Source of the DNA: Bacteroidales bacterium
Lineage (GTDB): Bacteria > Bacteroidota > Bacteroidia > Bacteroidales > NBLH01
Assembly: GCA_016937695.1 (NCBI GenBank)
Contig: JAFGWC010000031.1
Location: 1 to 60,264, forward strand
DNA: 60,264 nucleotides
Direction: 5' to 3'
Shown here piece by piece: positions 7,956 through 29,136 of this stretch. Both the position numbers and the translations under genes were made by a program. Position 1 is the stretch's first letter, and each line of letters starts with the position of its first letter. The notes under the pieces are model-generated. The model did no database searches. It saw only the letters and a list, made by a program, of their open reading frames with translations, and was not told the DNA's origin.

Positions 7956-9923
7956 TTGAATAAATTATTGATAATATTTCTGTGCATTTTTTCAATTTTA
8001 ATAAATGCTCAAACTACTTATTCTCAATCTACAAGAGAGCAAATAATTAGTGCATATTTATTAAATTTTACAGATTATGTTATTTGGGAAAACGAAAAAT
8101 CAATAACTGATTTTAAAATATTAATACTTACAAATCCGAATGAAAATAATAGTATTTTCAAAAACATTGAAAAAGTCGGGAACAAAAAATTTAAAAGTAT
8201 AAAAGTATCAATAACTAATGATTTTGATGAAAAATTATTATCAGAAGCTCAAATGATTTTTGTTGCAAAAGATAAAAGCGAATTTATAAATGATATTTTT
8301 GAAAAAATAGAATTTAAACCAATATTACTTGTAACAGAAAATTTTGAAAATGAGCGCTTAATAATGATAAATCTTTATGAAACAAGCAATTCTAAAATAG
8401 CATTTAAAATTAACAAAATAAATATGCTAAATCAAAATTTCAGCTTTGATGAAAAATTATTGTTACTTGGCGGAAAAGAGATAGATATTGTTGAATTATA
8501 TCTTAAATCTAAACAAAGTTTAAGAAATTTTGAAAAACAGATTGAAAACTATCAAACTCAATTTAAACTTTTAAATAAAAAAATTGAACGCAGCGAAAAT
8601 TTAATATCAGAACAAAACAAAAATATTGAAAATCAGAAATTAGAATATTCAAAAATAGAAAATGAAATAAATAAAGTTAAAACAGATTTTGAAAAGCAAA
8701 ATATTTTAATATCTGAAAAACAAAAAACTTTATTTTTACTAAACAAAAGCTTAAATAACAGTAAAATTCTATTAAACAAACAATTAGAAGAAATAGATTC
8801 AGGAAAAAAAGTTTTAGAAAACCAAAAAATCGACATAAATAAAAAAAATAAAACGATAAATAAAAAAAATGAAGAATTAAGTTCTCAGTGGCAAGTAATT
8901 ATACGTCAAAGATATACTGTTTATTTATTTAGCGTAATTATATTATTAATTATTACTTTAGTTTTATTTATGATAAAAAATAACAAAATTATTAATATAA
9001 AAAATTCATTATTACAATCGCAAAAAGAAGAATTGAACAGCAATTTAGAAGAAATAAAAACAATAAATGAACAATTAAACGAAAAAAATGAGAATTTTGA
9101 ATTAACACTTAACGAATTAAAAAATGCACAAAGACAAATAGCACAAGCCGAAAAAATGGCTTCACTTGGTGTTTTAACCGCAGGAATAGCACATGAAATA
9201 AACAATCCAATTAATTTTATTTATACAGGAATAAACAGTTTAAAAAAAGATTTTGAAGATATTTATATGATAATTAATGAGCTTAACAACATTGAATTAA
9301 AAGATAAAAACATATTTGAAAAAATCGAAAAAATTAACAAACTAAAAAAAGAATACTTTTTTAAAGACGCAATAGAAGCAATTCCTCAAATAATAAAAGA
9401 CATTACCACTGGAGTTGAAAGAACTACAGAAATAATAAAAGGATTAAGAATATTTTCTAAAGAAGGAGATAAAAATTATCAAATATACAGCGTAAATAAA
9501 ATAATTGATAATTCACTTTTACTATTAAAAAATAAATATAAAAACAGAATATCAATTATTAAAAATTACGAGCAAAATATTTATGAAATAAATTGTAATC
9601 CCGGAAAAATAATTCAAGTATTTATCAATATAATCAATAATTCCATTGATGCAATTGAAGGAGACGGCGAGATCACAATTTGTACAAAAGAATTAAATAA
9701 CAAAATCCATATATTAATTAAAGATAATGGAAAAGGTATGGATAAAGAAACACAATATAAGATTTTTGACCCTTTTTTTACTACCAAAGATATTGGTTCC
9801 GGAACAGGATTAGGATTATCAATTTCTTACGGAATAATTGAAGAACATTTTGGCGAAATATTAGTAAACAGTGAATTGAATAAAGGAACAGAATTTGAAG
9901 TAATTTTTAACGCTCACAGATAA
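7956..9923 (+). CDS. YfiR-domain (DUF4154) sensor histidine kinase
   Basis: 655 residues, read from a TTG start, the codon that gives a proper signal peptide (MNKLLIIFLCIFSILINAQ). Order: periplasmic YfiR/DUF4154 domain (about 28-170, beginning REQIISAYLLNFTDYVIWE), a long coiled coil (about 175-315), one membrane span (about 319-341), a second coiled coil, and a cytoplasmic kinase core. The H-box is AGIAHEINNP with H413; the N-box is INIINNSIDAI; the G-boxes are DNGKGMD and GSGTGLGLSISYG. In Pseudomonas, free YfiR is a periplasmic inhibitor of the cyclase YfiN; here it is built into the kinase as sensor. It is the first gene of a four-gene signalling operon, with 8 bases before the next gene. 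The stimulus is unknown. Confidence 0.88.
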   Translation: MNKLLIIFLCIFSILINAQTTYSQSTREQIISAYLLNFTDYVIWENEKSITDFKILILTNPNENNSIFKNIEKVGNKKFKSIKVSITNDFDEKLLSEAQMIFVAKDKSEFINDIFEKIEFKPILLVTENFENERLIMINLYETSNSKIAFKINKINMLNQNFSFDEKLLLLGGKEIDIVELYLKSKQSLRNFEKQIENYQTQFKLLNKKIERSENLISEQNKNIENQKLEYSKIENEINKVKTDFEKQNILISEKQKTLFLLNKSLNNSKILLNKQLEEIDSGKKVLENQKIDINKKNKTINKKNEELSSQWQVIIRQRYTVYLFSVIILLIITLVLFMIKNNKIINIKNSLLQSQKEELNSNLEEIKTINEQLNEKNENFELTLNELKNAQRQIAQAEKMASLGVLTAGIAHEINNPINFIYTGINSLKKDFEDIYMIINELNNIELKDKNIFEKIEKINKLKKEYFFKDAIEAIPQIIKDITTGVERTTEIIKGLRIFSKEGDKNYQIYSVNKIIDNSLLLLKNKYKNRISIIKNYEQNIYEINCNPGKIIQVFINIINNSIDAIEGDGEITICTKELNNKIHILIKDNGKGMDKETQYKIFDPFFTTKDIGSGTGLGLSISYGIIEEHFGEILVNSELNKGTEFEVIFNAHR

Positions 9924-23112: not shown

Positions 23113-25863
23113 TTAAACTATTTTTATACCGATAACTAAAACATCATCAATTTGTTTATTTTTATCTTTCCAGTTATCAAATGCACCAATTAATAGTTTA
23201 TGTTGAGTTTCCATTGGTTTATCAGAAATAGAAAGCAATAAATTTTTAAATCGTTTCAACATAAATTTACGTCTTGATTTTCCACCAAACTGGTCAGCAT
23301 ATCCATCAGAAAAAATGTAACAAACATCTCCTTTTTTAAGTTGAATTTTATTGTTTTTAAAATTTGCTCTTTCATCGTAGAAAATACCAATCGGCATATC
23401 ATCAGCTTTAATATCAACCATCTGCTTTCTGCCATCATCAAATTCTCTAACAATTACAATCGGATTATTTGCGCCGGCAAAGTCTAAGATTCTGGTTTTC
23501 ATATCAATAGAGCAAAGAGCTATGTCCATTCCATCTTTAGCTTCTCCTTCTTTTCCTGTTTGTCTTAACGATTCTTTAACACTATTTCTTAGATGAGTTA
23601 AAATTTTACCCGGATTTATTTCTTCTTTAGTCATTTTGCCGGTAATCTCATTTAAGAAAGTAATTCCTAACATGCTCATAAAACCACCCGGAACTCCATG
23701 TCCTGTGCAATCAGCAGCAGCTATAATAACTTTATCTTCCTTATGTGTTGCCCAATAAAAATCGCCACTTACTATATCTTTAGGCATAAACAAAATAAAA
23801 TGTTCTGATAGTAATTTTGCAAGATAATCGTCTGGCGGTAACACAGCTGTCTGGATTTTTTTAGCATACAAAATACTATCCGTTATTTTTTCATTTTGAA
23901 TTGCAATTTGTTCTTCGGCTAATTTTATTTTTGTAATATCTGCATCAATAGCAACATATTTAACAAGCTGATTATCAGTGTTAAATATTGGTGTCATTGT
24001 AGTTTGAATCCACAATAATCTACCAAGTTTAGTATATGTTTTTGCAGTATAATTTATTGATTTTTTTTCTTTTACTGCTAAATCTAGTTGTTCTTTTAAA
24101 TTCGGATTTAAAGTAACATCAAACAAATTTGAGCCGTATTCTTTCAAAAAATCTTCAAAGCTAATATCAAGTAATCTTGTAAAACCATCATTTACCCATT
24201 CAATATCTCCGTTAACATCAAAAATAACAACAGAATTTTCTGTTTTACTAGCAACAAGCGATAATTTTTCAAGTTCAATATTTTGTTTTTCTAATTCATG
24301 AGATTGTAAAGTAATTTGTTCATTTTTCTTAATTATCTCATTTTCAACTTCTTTTATTTTTGTAATATCAGAATCAATCAAAACTAATTTGGTAACATTT
24401 TTATCAGCATCTAAAATAGGCGAAAGTGTTGTTTGCGACCATTTTTCTTCTCCTTCTCTTGAAATTATTCTCGATTCATATATTACCGGTTTTTTATCTT
24501 TAACACAAGTATTAAAAATATTTTTGATGTCAGGATGACTACTTGCTTTAATTAAATTATCATCAAGCTCGTTGCGTAAAAGTTGTAATGTATAGCCATA
24601 CATTTTAGTAAATCCGGCATTTACCCATTCAAAATCTCCATTAACATCTAAAATCATAACAGCACTTGAAGTTTCACTGGCAACTATTGACAGTTTCTCT
24701 AATTCTTTATTAATAGACTCTAATTCAACTGCTTGACCTTCAATTTCCAGCTTTTGTTTTGCGAGTAATTTATTATCTTTCTTTTTAGTTCTATAGCCTC
24801 GCCATATAAAGAATGACATTAAAAGAATAATTGCCGAAAAAACCACAAAAATAAGCAGCATGTTTTTCTGAAACTGAATAGTAATTCCTTGTTTTACTAA
24901 CTCTCTGTTTTGTTCATCAATTTTATTTTGTCTGTCATCAATATCGCTTCCAAGCTCATTAAGAATTGATGTTTGTTTTGCAATTTTTTCTTCTTGTTCC
25001 GAAATAGATTTTTCCTTTTCAGATAAATCTTTTGTTTTTTTGGCTAATTCAACTTTTGCATTTGTTGCATCAGTAATTAATTGAGCTAATTCTGATCTTT
25101 GATTTTCTATTTTTTGATTTTGATCTGTTATTTGATTACTCTGACTGATTAAATATTGAGTTTGTTTCTCAATTTCTGCCTCTTTTTGTTTTATTTGCTT
25201 TTCTTTCTCTGCAAGTTCGTTTTCTTTTGTTTTAATGTCAGACTGAAGTTTTTTAACATTTTGTTTTTCAATCTTCAGGCTTTTTTCAGAATCCTCGTAT
25301 AATGTTTTTGTGCTAATTACTTCACCACCTAACCTATTAAAAATTTGCATTAGCCCTTCATCTTTTTGGTCAAATTTAATATTTGAATTTCTTAGATTTT
25401 CAGGATTTAATTGAAAAGTAACTTTACCATTATTTATAACATAATTTATTGATACATTTTTTATTACACTATATTCATCTGTAACTAAAGCAGTATTATA
25501 TCCTGCAATTTTTCTTTTAACTTTGGTAAAGTTTGAATTTTGAGATTTTGGTAAATAAAGTAAATGGGTTTCTGTTATATTATCTATACTTGTAAAATTT
25601 ATAACTTCAATAAAAATAACATTATCATATCCTCCTTTTGTTCTGGCTTCAAGAGCTTTCATAAAGCTTTCTTTTCCATTTAAAACTCCAATTTTAATAG
25701 TTTCTATATTATCATCATTTTCCCATTTTAAAAAGAACGGAAAATTGTATAAAAGATTTGCTTTTTGTTTATCAATAGATCCACTTTGGGCTTTCAAGTT
25801 ATTACTCTGAAAACTTAAAGTTATTAATATTAAAAATAAAAATATTTTAGAATAAAATTTCAT
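23113..25863 (-). CDS. YfiR-sensor PAS-PAS-PP2C (SpoIIE) phosphatase
   Basis: 916 residues. Order: signal peptide (1-25, ending LKAQ), periplasmic YfiR/DUF4154 domain (about 30-180), a long coiled coil (about 190-325), one membrane span (about 333-353), PAS (about 388-500), PAS (about 536-650), and a SpoIIE/PP2C phosphatase (about 658-916). The phosphatase keeps its metal-binding acidic residues: SGDFYW, ADCTGHGVPGGFMSMLG, FSDGYADQFGG and IDDVLVI. It shares sensor, coiled coil and span layout with the YfiR kinase at 7956-9923, but has a phosphatase output. PP2C phosphatases of this class dephosphorylate partner-switch proteins; the SiaC-like protein at 27582-27989 is the best candidate substrate nearby. 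It converges on the STN gene with 17 bases between. Confidence 0.9.
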   Translation of the reverse strand: MKFYSKIFLFLILITLSFQSNNLKAQSGSIDKQKANLLYNFPFFLKWENDDNIETIKIGVLNGKESFMKALEARTKGGYDNVIFIEVINFTSIDNITETHLLYLPKSQNSNFTKVKRKIAGYNTALVTDEYSVIKNVSINYVINNGKVTFQLNPENLRNSNIKFDQKDEGLMQIFNRLGGEVISTKTLYEDSEKSLKIEKQNVKKLQSDIKTKENELAEKEKQIKQKEAEIEKQTQYLISQSNQITDQNQKIENQRSELAQLITDATNAKVELAKKTKDLSEKEKSISEQEEKIAKQTSILNELGSDIDDRQNKIDEQNRELVKQGITIQFQKNMLLIFVVFSAIILLMSFFIWRGYRTKKKDNKLLAKQKLEIEGQAVELESINKELEKLSIVASETSSAVMILDVNGDFEWVNAGFTKMYGYTLQLLRNELDDNLIKASSHPDIKNIFNTCVKDKKPVIYESRIISREGEEKWSQTTLSPILDADKNVTKLVLIDSDITKIKEVENEIIKKNEQITLQSHELEKQNIELEKLSLVASKTENSVVIFDVNGDIEWVNDGFTRLLDISFEDFLKEYGSNLFDVTLNPNLKEQLDLAVKEKKSINYTAKTYTKLGRLLWIQTTMTPIFNTDNQLVKYVAIDADITKIKLAEEQIAIQNEKITDSILYAKKIQTAVLPPDDYLAKLLSEHFILFMPKDIVSGDFYWATHKEDKVIIAAADCTGHGVPGGFMSMLGITFLNEITGKMTKEEINPGKILTHLRNSVKESLRQTGKEGEAKDGMDIALCSIDMKTRILDFAGANNPIVIVREFDDGRKQMVDIKADDMPIGIFYDERANFKNNKIQLKKGDVCYIFSDGYADQFGGKSRRKFMLKRFKNLLLSISDKPMETQHKLLIGAFDNWKDKNKQIDDVLVIGIKIV

Positions 25864-26185
25864 TAAAAAAATGATTTCTTTATTAATTGTATAAAAAATA
25901 TAAATTTTGATAAAATTAGTATATATTTAATAATTGTCAAAAAATACACATTAATTTTATTTATGACAAAAACATTTTACTTTATTTTATATAAATTTAA
26001 AAATTTGATATAGCATAAATAATATATAGCAAGCTTTATACCAAATTTATTTAGATTAATTTCAAAATACTAATTTTAGGTTTATCCAATTTACTATTCT
26101 ATTATAAAACTGAATATAAGGAAGTTACACAAACATTAATATCGAATTCAAAAATAAAAATTAAATCCGAATCATGAATTTCAAT
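25864..26185. other. Non-coding gap
   Basis: Very AT-rich with stop codons in all frames and no gene. It presumably contains the promoter for the phosphatase gene and the end of the PLD gene transcript. I see no convincing hairpin, promoter box or repeat. Confidence 0.4.
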
Positions 26186-26860
26186 CTAGAGGTGTGGTGT
26201 CATTATTTCCCAAAGTCTATCAAATTCATTTTGGTATTTCTGTACTGTTTTTTTATTTGAGCTTATCAAAAAGTTTTCCTGATTATATATTGCTGCACTT
26301 CTTGTCCAATTATAGCTTCCGGTAAGAAATTTTATGTTATCTACTATTGCAAATTTATTATGCATATGGTGCTTACTCGTATCTATTTTTACTTCAATTC
26401 CTTCTTCTGATAAAAAATTAATATCAGATCCTAAATCGTTTTGTTTATCATTATCCGTTATAATTTTTATTGAAATTCCTCTTTTTTTACATTCAATAAG
26501 TTTATTTGTTATTCTATCATCGCTAATTGTAAAAACACAAATTGCAATATTTTTTTTTGCAGAATTTAAAAAATCCAGTATTTTATTAATACAATCGGTA
26601 AAAGGCGTAAAACAAACAATATCTCTGTTTATCTTATTAACTCTGTTATGGTTAAGTATATTAAATATTTTTTCAATTTTACTTAAAAACACTTTATCTA
26701 TAACACTCTCATTACTAATTACTTCAAAAACATTTTTTTGAATAATATTGAGTTCTTCATTTTCGAAACCAGCTTCTTTTAATTTAGAATTTAATTTTTG
26801 TATCTGATTTTCATCTGAATTAAATAAATATGTTCTTATCAAATAAATAATTTCGTCCAT
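26186..26860 (-). CDS. Phospholipase D-family protein with a single HKD motif
   Basis: 224 residues. The first 80 are helical with no recognised domain; the PLDc_2 domain covers about 82-215. The HKD motif reads HNKFAIVD with H167, K169 and D174, followed by GSYNWT (181-186), as in Nuc-type endonucleases and cardiolipin hydrolase-like proteins. With one HKD motif it should act as a dimer. No signal peptide is seen, so it is probably cytoplasmic, and a nuclease or phosphodiesterase role is more likely than an exported lipase. It stands alone, flanked by two long non-coding gaps. Confidence 0.85.
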   Translation of the reverse strand: MDEIIYLIRTYLFNSDENQIQKLNSKLKEAGFENEELNIIQKNVFEVISNESVIDKVFLSKIEKIFNILNHNRVNKINRDIVCFTPFTDCINKILDFLNSAKKNIAICVFTISDDRITNKLIECKKRGISIKIITDNDKQNDLGSDINFLSEEGIEVKIDTSKHHMHNKFAIVDNIKFLTGSYNWTRSAAIYNQENFLISSNKKTVQKYQNEFDRLWEIMTPHL

Positions 26861-27276
26861 TTTAGATATTTTATTGTTTTGGAATTAAATTTAAACATAT
26901 AATTCTATGAAATTAAAATTTTGCCAAATATTATACAAATTCTATTTAAACAGAAAGTATACATATTGAAATAAAAGACTCAATAAAGCAATTCAAATTA
27001 AATAAAAAAAATATTTTTAATAATCTGTGTTCGATATAATAAAAAGATAAATTAACAAAGCCTTTTTGCATTAAAAAGAATTAAATTTAATTCCAAATTT
27101 TATTGTTAAATCATTTAAATTCAGCAATATAACTATTTTTATTAGTTTAACAATAATTTTATCACAAATAGAAATAATGGCGAAATAAATTCAACAAAAA
27201 TTTAATTCGAACTCAGATTAATAACTAATATTATATCTTTGCATAAAGTTAATATTTTAATTTTAAAAATTTTTAT
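26861..27276. other. Non-coding gap with a possible -7 box
   Basis: No gene seen. TATCTTTG at 27234-27241 fits the Bacteroidota -7 element and lies 35 bases before the DUF2007 ATG, but no -33 TTG is placed correctly. GAATTAAATTTAATTC at 27078-27093 is a perfect 16-base palindrome of low complexity. The divergent PLD gene should also have its promoter here. Confidence 0.4.
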
Positions 27277-27516
27277 ATGCAAGATATTTATGAGGTTTTT
27301 TCAGGCTCAACAGTTGAAGCTAATTTTATTAAATCAATACTAAATGAAAATAATATTGAAGTAATTATCAAGAATTTTACAGAAAACAGTATTAATGCAG
27401 GCTGGGTTGATCCTAATTCAAGTGCAGGAGTTGTTGTTTCTGTTTTAGCAAATGATTTTGAACAGGCAGAAAAATTAGTGAGAGAATACTTCAATAGCAG
27501 AGATGAAGAAGTTTAA
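27277..27516 (+). CDS. DUF2007 family protein
   Basis: 79 residues. The pattern YEVFSGSTVEANFIKSILNE, then GWVDPNSSAGVVVSVLANDF and QAEKLVREY, matches the DUF2007 ferredoxin-like fold (annotated as putative signal-transducing, PII-like). These proteins have no established function. The gene is monocistronic, has a -7 box upstream, and ends at a strong terminator. Confidence 0.85.
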   Translation: MQDIYEVFSGSTVEANFIKSILNENNIEVIIKNFTENSINAGWVDPNSSAGVVVSVLANDFEQAEKLVREYFNSRDEEV

Positions 27517-27533
27517 ATTATAAATTATATAGC

Positions 27534-27567
27534 AAAAAAGCTGTTTTATAATTAAAACAGCTTTTTT
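27534..27567. terminator. Strong bidirectional terminator
   Basis: A perfect 15-bp stem (27534-27548 with 27553-27567) with a 4-base loop (taat), A-rich on the left and T-rich on the right. It ends both the DUF2007 gene on + and the SiaC-like gene on -. Confidence 0.9.
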
Positions 27568-27581
27568 TATTTGTCCTTTAT

Positions 27582-27989
27582 TTAATAATCTTCATCGTCT
27601 TCATCTAATAACTCTTTTTCATAAGGAACCAGCTCAAATTTAACTTTTACCAAATGAGTAAACCTTATACCCAAAGCTTGCATATCTTCATCTATACTAT
27701 CATAATGCCAAAATACTGTAACATCACTAACTTCATTAATTTTATCAATTAAAAAAATTAATTCAAAAACTTGTTTAGAAGATGCTGTATTTAAATATTC
27801 TATATTAAAGTTAAAAACTGTTTCCGGTAATGGATTATCTCTGTATTTTTTTAACCAACTTAAAACAGGCGCATAAAATTCAATTGCATTTTCGGGTAAA
27901 GAAACATTAGAAATCGAAAAAATTTCATTTTCCGGATCAAAAATTATTTCCGGTGTATCTTCAGTTGCTTTTATAATTAAAGACTGCAT
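27582..27989 (-). CDS. SiaC-like regulatory phosphoprotein (DUF1987)
   Basis: 135 residues, soluble. It has the DUF1987 hallmarks: an N-terminal IIKATEDTPEIIFDPENEIFSI, the central FNIEYLNTASSKQVFELIF, and a VTVFWHYDSIDEDMQALG end before an acidic tail. In Pseudomonas aeruginosa, SiaC is phosphorylated by SiaB and dephosphorylated by the PP2C enzyme SiaA, and the free form activates the diguanylate cyclase SiaD. The known phosphosite there is T68; the matching residue here is also T68 (in LNTASSK). The gene lies 13 bases after the double SiaB-like kinase gene in the same direction, so it is the second gene of that operon. Its target here is unknown. Confidence 0.88.
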   Translation of the reverse strand: MQSLIIKATEDTPEIIFDPENEIFSISNVSLPENAIEFYAPVLSWLKKYRDNPLPETVFNFNIEYLNTASSKQVFELIFLIDKINEVSDVTVFWHYDSIDEDMQALGIRFTHLVKVKFELVPYEKELLDEDDEDY

Positions 27990-28002
27990 TTTTTATAGTT
28001 TA

Positions 28003-29136
28003 TTATATTTTTACTGTTGACTGTATAGTATAAAAAGAATATTCATCGTTAATTCTACGGAAATCAAATTCAAGTTTTCCATTACATTTTAATCTCATGT
28101 CTATAAATCCTAAACCGGTTTTTTTAGGGTCGATAACATTTTGATCTAATAATATTTTGTTAAAATATTCATTTAAATCGCCGGCATCCAATTCATTAAC
28201 AGCGTCAAGCCTATTTCTAAAACCTTCTACATCATGATTTTCAATATAATTTCCGGCAGTTAAAATAAATTCTTCTTCGTTTTGACCTAAAAAGAAAATT
28301 CCTGAGGCGCCTTCTTCAGGACTGCCAAGATTTTTACCATGTTTACTAATATTTTGAAGCATTTCAACCATTATATAATAAACTTTTTTGGCAGCTTTAT
28401 TAAGGCTCATTTGCCCTTTTATAATTGATAAAAGGCTGAGTATATTATTTTGATTAAAATTACCATTAAAACTAAGTAAAATATCTCTTTTAGACAAAAG
28501 GCTATTCAAATATTTGATATCCCTCATTGTATCTGTTAAGCTGGCATTTTTAATTTCAAAATCATTCTCTGAACGGCTTGGTATTTCAGTTTGCAAATAA
28601 AAATACGACCAATATAAATCAACATATTCAAAATCGAATAATAATTTATTTCCTGATCTTCTTGCCATTTCAATTAACCCAAGTCCTGCTCCACCTTTAT
28701 CAGATAATTCGCCTGTACTTAAAATATCTTTATGCAATTTTTTTAATTCATCTCTATCCAAACTATTTACTTCGTCCAATTTTTCTTTAAGAGAATCAAC
28801 TTTACTATTAACAATAAGGTTTCCTGTTGTAATCAAATATTTATCCTCTAATTTTTGGATAGCAAAAATACCTGAATTATCATTGGTTTGGTCAAACACT
28901 TCATCCTGATGTCTGGTAACATTTTGAAGTCCTTCAACCATTATAAAATAAATTCTGTTTTGTAATGATGATTTATCAACAAATTTTTGAAGATTACTTT
29001 CTGCCAAGCCAAGAATTTTTCTTGTCAAAGTTTGAGTAAAAACACCTCTGTAAATATATTCAAAATCACCATTATCAACCCTTTTAAAAAGATCGTAAGC
29101 TAATTTATGTGGTCTTTTTTCAATTCTTTGTATCAT
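28003..29136 (-). CDS. Tandem SiaB-like kinase (two fused DUF6272 domains)
   Basis: 377 residues, about twice the length of a single SiaB. Two GHKL-like halves are visible. Half 1 (about 15-185) has YFIMVEGLQNVTRH (E68, N72) and GGAGLGLIEMARRSG. Half 2 (about 218-373) has YYIMVEMLQNISKHG (E258, N262) and KKTGLGFIDM. Each half also has a matched ITTGN/LTAGN strand and an LDEVNSLDRDEL/LDAVNELDAGDL helix, so the gene arose by internal duplication. The family phosphorylates SiaC. Half 2 has lost one glycine of the G-box pattern, so the halves may differ in activity. It is the promoter-proximal gene of the siaC operon. Confidence 0.85.
   Translation of the reverse strand: MIQRIEKRPHKLAYDLFKRVDNGDFEYIYRGVFTQTLTRKILGLAESNLQKFVDKSSLQNRIYFIMVEGLQNVTRHQDEVFDQTNDNSGIFAIQKLEDKYLITTGNLIVNSKVDSLKEKLDEVNSLDRDELKKLHKDILSTGELSDKGGAGLGLIEMARRSGNKLLFDFEYVDLYWSYFYLQTEIPSRSENDFEIKNASLTDTMRDIKYLNSLLSKRDILLSFNGNFNQNNILSLLSIIKGQMSLNKAAKKVYYIMVEMLQNISKHGKNLGSPEEGASGIFFLGQNEEEFILTAGNYIENHDVEGFRNRLDAVNELDAGDLNEYFNKILLDQNVIDPKKTGLGFIDMRLKCNGKLEFDFRRINDEYSFYTIQSTVKI

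Follow-up and report, generated by a model that had tools for sequence, protein, structure and literature searches.

The window analysed here is a stretch of 60,264 nucleotides (contig JAFGWC010000031.1, assembly GCA_016937695.1) from a Bacteroidales bacterium with a genome of 3.95 Mb in 159 contigs, 99.6% complete. Within 6 kb it contains genes for a receptor phosphatase with a YfiR sensor domain, a SiaC family phosphoprotein and a tandem SiaB-family kinase (Table 1). An original prediction, made from the letters of the window, had described these genes as a SiaABC-like partner switch driven by a YfiR sensor and lacking a cyclase target. The three genes it named are exact open reading frames (ORFs), all on the minus strand, and Pfam and PDB families agree that the trio is SiaABC-like at the family level, with SiaA, SiaB and SiaC as the closest solved relatives. 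Since the Pfam matches of all three proteins exceed the curated cut-offs, they are not chance matches.

The phosphatase consists of a signal peptide, a YfiR domain, a coiled coil, a transmembrane helix (around residues 338-356), two PAS domains and a PP2C domain, in that order, with the signal peptide and the helix assigned by eye. The YfiR/DUF4154 domain (5.6e-15; PF13689, YfiR/HmsC-like, 56.1 bits against a cut-off of 24.9), the SpoIIE-type PP2C domain (2e-22; PF07228, 80.5 bits against 25) and the two PAS stretches were all recovered by Pfam. The four metal-site motifs of PP2C are present (SGDF at 699, ADCTGHG at 717, SDG at 852 and DDV at 906), and the best PDB sequence match of this part is the PP2C domain of SiaA (6k4e, 6e-32). 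The SiaA equivalog model NF038263, whose cut-off of 700 bits includes the sensor part, gave 163.8 bits over the PP2C region only. As in the YfiBNR system of P. aeruginosa (PMC4655355; this and the other papers are cited from the portions of their text available to us), the YfiR/DUF4154 domain is predicted to be periplasmic, but in the window it is fused to a receptor phosphatase rather than being a free repressor, and no YfiN-type GGDEF cyclase was found. Residues 1-330 contain no cysteine and hence neither of the two cysteine pairs of YfiR proper, and therefore the disulphide chemistry that the same source describes for YfiR of Pseudomonas is not available to the domain.

The SiaC protein matches PF09345 (1.8e-32; 112 bits against a cut-off of 24.5) and the solved Pseudomonas SiaC (6k4f/6kko). 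Its acceptor is T68 in YLNTASSK, a threonine following the conserved asparagine, and the corresponding column is threonine in 69 and serine in nine of the 78 SiaC domains that we aligned (at least 90 amino acids, identical ones merged). Pseudomonas SiaC is phosphorylated at T68 within LLYLNTSSIK (PMC7647112). The kinase contains two DUF6272 domains in one 377-amino-acid chain (PF19788, 5e-68), a feature that the original prediction had missed, and passes the SiaB-family subfamily model NF038262 (247 bits over two stretches, cut-off 85). Activity on SiaC is predicted from the N-box E..QN (E68/N72 and E258/N262) and glycine motifs, which are found in both domains; the second domain matches SiaB in the PDB (6kko_A, 3.4e-9). 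An AlphaFold model of the tandem kinase was too poor to use (mean predicted local distance difference test score, pLDDT, 60.9; predicted template modelling score, pTM, 0.41). The equivalog models for SiaC (NF038265, 65.1 bits against 150) and SiaB (NF038264, 107.7 against 225) were not reached.

Table 1. Features of the switch locus and its neighbouring genes in the window.
Feature	Position	Strand	Basis and remarks
SiaA-like receptor phosphatase	23113..25863	-	916 amino acids; ORF, Pfam and PDB sequence match
YfiR/DUF4154 sensor domain of the phosphatase (residues 32-166)	25366..25770	-	Pfam
SpoIIE-type PP2C catalytic domain of the phosphatase	23122..23739	-	Pfam; best PDB match 6k4e
SiaC family phosphoprotein	27582..27989	-	135 amino acids; T68 codon 27786-27788, YLNTASSK
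Tandem SiaB-family kinase, two DUF6272 domains	28003..29136	-	377 amino acids; 13 bp upstream of siaC
PLD-like protein gene, between phosphatase and siaC	26186..26860	-	Pfam; no known role in the switch
DUF2007-related small protein gene, between phosphatase and siaC	27277..27516	+	below the cut-off of that model; in the inverted block
AT-flanked hairpin in the gap between the DUF2007 gene and siaC	27538..27563	.	likely two-way terminator (by eye); inside inverted repeat I1

Switches of the RsbU/RsbV/RsbW type combine a PP2C phosphatase, a HATPase-like kinase and a phosphoprotein antagonist. The window system resembles them in this logic, as it does the HsbA/HsbD and Bgr switches, which are named in PMC8457831, but it uses a SiaC/DUF1987 substrate and a DUF6272 kinase instead of a STAS protein and RsbW, and no sigma factor or cyclase partner was seen for it. 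With SiaABCD of P. aeruginosa (PMC7647112, PMC8457831) it shares the PP2C phosphatase, the SiaB-type kinase and a SiaC with T68, and the SiaA-B-C gene order is found at a sister locus of the host genome (L036) and in other families. The window differs from SiaABCD in its YfiR-PAS-PAS sensor and in having two kinase domains per chain. The system, known in its parts at the family level, is by sequence best called a variant of SiaABC, because no GGDEF target corresponding to SiaD is found in the genome, the phosphatase gene lies outside the siaBC operon, and the SiaA, SiaB and SiaC equivalog cut-offs are not attained.

Profile searches of the host genome gave 18 SiaC matches, 18 DUF6272 domain matches, seven YfiR matches and 29 SpoIIE match rows at 28 places. 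The window locus is therefore one of many such modules, and the earlier picture of a singular meeting of the SiaABC and YfiR logics is not supported in that form. YfiR is one of several sensors: phosphatases linked to SiaBC also occur in TPR, GAF-PAS and beta-propeller versions, and this suggests a switch with exchangeable sensors. A 39-kb contig of the same genome (G000:C157; L031, L032) is dense in SiaB, SiaC and PP2C genes, and includes a SiaBB-SiaC fusion (SiaBB denoting the two-domain kinase) and a second YfiR-PP2C gene.

Named genomes were scanned with the window kinase, giving four loci (L051-L054) in Bacteroidales or Bacteroidetes metagenome-assembled genomes. At all four, siaB-siaC stands tail to tail with an orthologous phosphatase gene (the kinase of L054 is only partly covered), and the gap between siaC and the phosphatase gene is 54 bp in L051, 115 bp in L052, 154 bp in L053 and 349 bp in L054. 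The phosphatases of L051, L052 and L054 are 57-61% identical to that of the window over the full length, the L053 phosphatase ORF is broken into two pieces with 67% and 52% identity, and the four SiaC proteins are 78-82% identical to the window SiaC. Chance proximity of the phosphatase gene and siaBC was rejected, as all four loci retain the adjacency. The gene order in L051 is siaC, phosphatase, PLD and DUF2007, and the window has the last three genes in reverse order and orientation; from this comparison, the block 23113-27516 appears inverted in the window relative to its congener. The PLD-like gene adjoins the phosphatase gene in L051 and L054 as well, and L052 has no PLD gene. Among the longest 25 of 112 repeat pairs no convincing recombination site was found at the inverted block, the repeats there being AT-rich or part of the terminator-like hairpin, and an Rfam scan of the window at the gathering threshold returned nothing.

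Further YfiR-PP2C genes occur next to siaC. The second YfiR-PAS-PAS-PP2C gene of the host genome, on contig C157, lies on the same strand 306 bp after siaB-siaC, and this order is repeated in the congener loci L056, L059, L062 and L064. In other families of the order, a YfiR-PP2C gene on the same strand overlaps a siaB-siaB-siaC-siaC run (L070) or lies 28 bp from siaC (L082). We counted neighbours of all YfiR receptors encoded by ORFs of at least 450 amino acids, leaving out the duplicate loci L057, L058 and L065 and not counting the broken phosphatase of L053. With kinship not corrected, siaB or siaC was found within 2 kb of 11 of the 33 YfiR-PP2C genes, and the corresponding count for YfiR receptors lacking a recognised PP2C domain was 0 of 13 (p=0.02); at a limit of 200 bp, the counts were 4/33 and 0/13 (p=0.31). 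These 13 receptors comprise ten histidine kinases and three that are cut or untagged. A single class of YfiR receptors was rejected, as some carry the domain on PP2C and others on histidine kinases, and no siaB or siaC lies within 5 kb of any of the 13 non-PP2C receptors. The window itself encodes a second YfiR receptor (7956-9923, plus strand), also an addition to the original prediction. Its YfiR domain is joined to a histidine kinase and not to a phosphatase; by eye, the genes that follow encode one more sensor kinase and two proteins of response-regulator type.

Several observations weigh against a dedicated pairing of the window phosphatase with SiaBC. The siaBC operon of the window excludes the phosphatase gene, which is 1.7 kb from siaC with the PLD-like and DUF2007-like genes intervening, as the original prediction recognised in stating that the genes are not in one operon; single-run phosphatase-kinase-siaC arrangements are present elsewhere in the same genome. 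No siaB or siaC lies within 2 kb of 22 of the 33 YfiR-PP2C genes, some of which are on short contigs. A congener (G063, 59% complete) has a window-type phosphatase without siaBC nearby (L060), and in other families the phosphatases nearest to that of the window (L071, L074, L075) stand alone. In a quick tree of 79 PP2C domains of at least 150 amino acids, without the three duplicate loci, the window PP2C is placed in a group of 38 rows (support 89), most of which are PP2Cs without a SiaBC link. The 28 PP2C places and 18 SiaC matches of the genome leave room for cross-talk or for a different substrate. These numbers, the standalone YfiR-PP2Cs of other families and L060 would fit an arrangement in which the YfiR phosphatase serves a SiaC paralogue or a STAS protein, SiaBB and SiaC work with a different phosphatase as a switch of their own, and the adjacency reflects no more than inheritance within the genus. 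Such an arrangement is harder to reconcile with the adjacency retained in four relatives despite the inverted block in the window, with the further YfiR-PP2C/SiaC runs (L032, L070, L082) and with the 2-kb neighbour counts, and we consider it unlikely, though with an appreciable chance of being right. From the adjacency pattern, we regard the link between phosphatase and SiaBC as well supported within the genus by gene neighbourhood, and as plausible, not general, outside it. The link had originally been drawn from proximity and family; it gains from the four relatives, from the further runs and from fusions of SiaBB and of PP2C to SiaC. The conservation of neighbourhood proposed as its check is clear in L051-L054 but weaker beyond the genus.

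The fusions include SiaB-SiaB-SiaC in one protein in the host genome (L032, L033), in congeners (L056, L059, L064) and in another family (L132), a SiaB-SiaC protein (L001) and a PP2C-SiaC protein (L131). In the last (L131:3781-5850), the N-terminal 310 or so amino acids look caspase-like by eye and have no Pfam match in that region. In a tree of the 78 SiaC domains, the window SiaC and the SiaCs of its four congeners form a group (99/98) within a 13-row group (97/89) that is mostly SiaBB-linked or fused and lies apart from the SiaCs linked to the TerB-ABC proteins discussed below; thus, kinase and substrate of this lineage are often one protein. The SiaCs beside C157-type YfiR-PP2Cs belong to a separate 18-row group (100/99) that also holds GGDEF-linked SiaCs, and in the quick tree these phosphatases group with those of GGDEF operons, apart from the window PP2C. 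A single SiaC lineage linked to YfiR-PP2C was rejected, as two separate SiaC lineages are linked and their phosphatases are not sisters. Because the fusions hold kinase and substrate in one chain, and SiaBB-type loci have, by eye, no constant third neighbour, SiaBB and SiaC of the window might act by themselves as a sink or timer, titrating a kinase or phosphatase without any binding target. However, the window SiaC retains the conserved SiaC motif and phosphosite as in other members, and we consider a sink or timer improbable.

We think it probable, with moderate confidence, that the window locus is a SiaABC-type partner switch with a YfiR/PAS-gated PP2C phosphatase, a SiaBB kinase and SiaC T68, acting on a non-GGDEF target encoded elsewhere in the genome. 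By analogy with the Pseudomonas system, we infer that the two-domain kinase would phosphorylate SiaC on T68, that the membrane-bound phosphatase, gated by periplasmic YfiR as the input and by two cytoplasmic PAS domains, would remove the phosphate, and that unphosphorylated SiaC would bind its target. As the genome gave no GGDEF match, the target should not be a GGDEF cyclase, and the best family-wide candidate would be a TerB-ABC-ABC2 transporter.

The lack of a cyclase target, first noted for the window, holds for canonical GGDEF well beyond it. PF00990 (GGDEF) has no match in the entire 3.95-Mb genome; no search for EAL was made there or in the window. When each family of the order was sampled with one genome (60 in all), SiaC was present in 28 (1 to 21 matches each), none of which has GGDEF, and the sole GGDEF of the sample lies in a SiaC-free genome. 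The gene found beside siaC encodes a protein of about 1040 amino acids that combines a TerB domain at the N terminus with an ABC ATPase and an ABC2 membrane domain. The TerB domain itself was matched in one of two such proteins scanned, and the NCBIfam model that fits the protein best, though it scores below the cut-off, is TIGR00955 for pigment precursor permeases, an ABCG-type family. Searched with its N-terminal 264 amino acids, TerB-ABC was found in 27 of the 28 SiaC-bearing and 0 of the 32 SiaC-free genomes (Fisher 3e-16, genomes treated as independent). Comparing 69 SiaC places (part of those listed) with 88 TerB-ABC places (split rows merged), at a limit of 600 bp and an assumed TerB-ABC gene length of 3150 bp, we obtained as lower bounds that siaC lies upstream of TerB-ABC on the same strand in at least 23 of 27 genomes, that the two are convergent in at least 12, and that one or other arrangement occurs in at least 25.

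In a sample of 198 genomes of the phylum, SiaC is present in 13. The five of the window's class carry TerB-ABC and lack GGDEF, and the eight of other classes carry GGDEF and lack TerB-ABC. Loci L101-L103 read PP2C-SiaB-SiaC-TerB-ABC, and L107 and L108, from two genomes of another class, PP2C-SiaB-SiaC-GGDEF; therefore, the fourth operon slot has been exchanged. In the other six GGDEF-bearing genomes, no GGDEF was seen beside siaC by letter motif; the motif calls in L107 and L108 are backed by the GGDEF search, and that in L108 also by Pfam. ORFs were called from ATG starts at a minimum of 60 amino acids and some genes were missed, for example at a SiaC match in L114.

The output of SiaABC-type switches in the window's class is thus probably not a GGDEF cyclase, and across the family the TerB-ABC transporter is the leading candidate; as the output of the window's own SiaC it is unproven. 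As a tentative proposal that may well fail, we suggest a class-wide rewiring, in which a TerB-ABC-ABC2 (ABCG-like) protein would occupy the SiaD slot, SiaC would bind its cytoplasmic TerB-containing N-terminal region, and a Ser/Thr phospho-network without GGDEF cyclases, grown in a single genome to 18 SiaC matches and 28 PP2C places that include YfiR sensors, would control transport. The original prediction's lack of a cyclase target stands as far as canonical GGDEF is concerned, and the TerB-ABC candidate for its unknown output had escaped it. Some findings count against the transporter: one genome (G049), the sole exception among the 28, has SiaC without TerB-ABC; 53 of the 88 TerB-ABC places have no siaC neighbour in the list used; the co-occurrence counts are uncorrected for phylogeny; and in the stretches read no TerB-ABC gene lies near the window SiaC or other SiaBB-type SiaCs. 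A profile of the TerB-ABC N-terminal region, searched against the PDB for SiaD or another known SiaC-binding region, gave no match at E up to 1. The host genome has four TerB-ABC genes, and the products of the two (L097, L098) without siaC beside them in the stretches read would be candidate targets in trans for the window SiaC.

The output could still be cyclic-di-GMP if it came from a cyclase that PF00990 misses. PMC10101095 reports that PG_0686 of P. gingivalis, which lacks GGDEF, is a diguanylate cyclase, a caveat to the absence of cyclases. The evidence against such an enzyme is indirect, and a gene of the PG_0686 type was not searched for: the recurrent neighbour of siaC in the class is TerB-ABC, not an unknown enzyme, and GGDEF is missing from all SiaC-bearing genomes of the order sample. 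We regard a hidden cyclase as very improbable.

A literature search, mostly without subscription papers, showed nothing among the papers listed on SiaC with TerB-ABC, on YfiR with PP2C, or on the SiaC and SiaB families in Bacteroidota, and PMC9239204, in the part available, names SiaABCD only as a Pseudomonas example. SiaC/DUF1987 proteins are called widespread in PMC8457831, yet the described target in the literature found, as far as its text was available, is one cyclase. Modulation of adjacent proteins was suggested in PMC8457831 as a general role of DUF1987 proteins, and TerB-ABC is an adjacent protein of the kind that this suggestion covers. If SiaC does control a transporter in this class, a biofilm-control switch would become a general module with exchangeable sensors and outputs, and in organisms without recognisable cyclic-di-GMP cyclases dozens of PP2C sensors would have a candidate function. 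Since TerB-ABC adjoins siaC, the transporter reading is directly testable.

Other arrangements of SiaC were also observed. Three tandem SiaC genes lie at L018:657-1860 (the same place as in L030), and some 1.2 kb upstream of them is a short piece of a SiaB-type ORF; a similar row of three in L136 has one copy with an internal stop. In L133 (1-3659), SiaC is extended at its C terminus by a region whose zinc-ribbon matches stay below the cut-off; the next two genes have TIR matches, above the cut-off in one and below it in the other. In L002-L023 (e.g., L023), a SiaB-SiaC pair beside an RlmL-type methyltransferase gene (by eye) recurs in many families of the order, and these pairs often face an ABC2-type protein.

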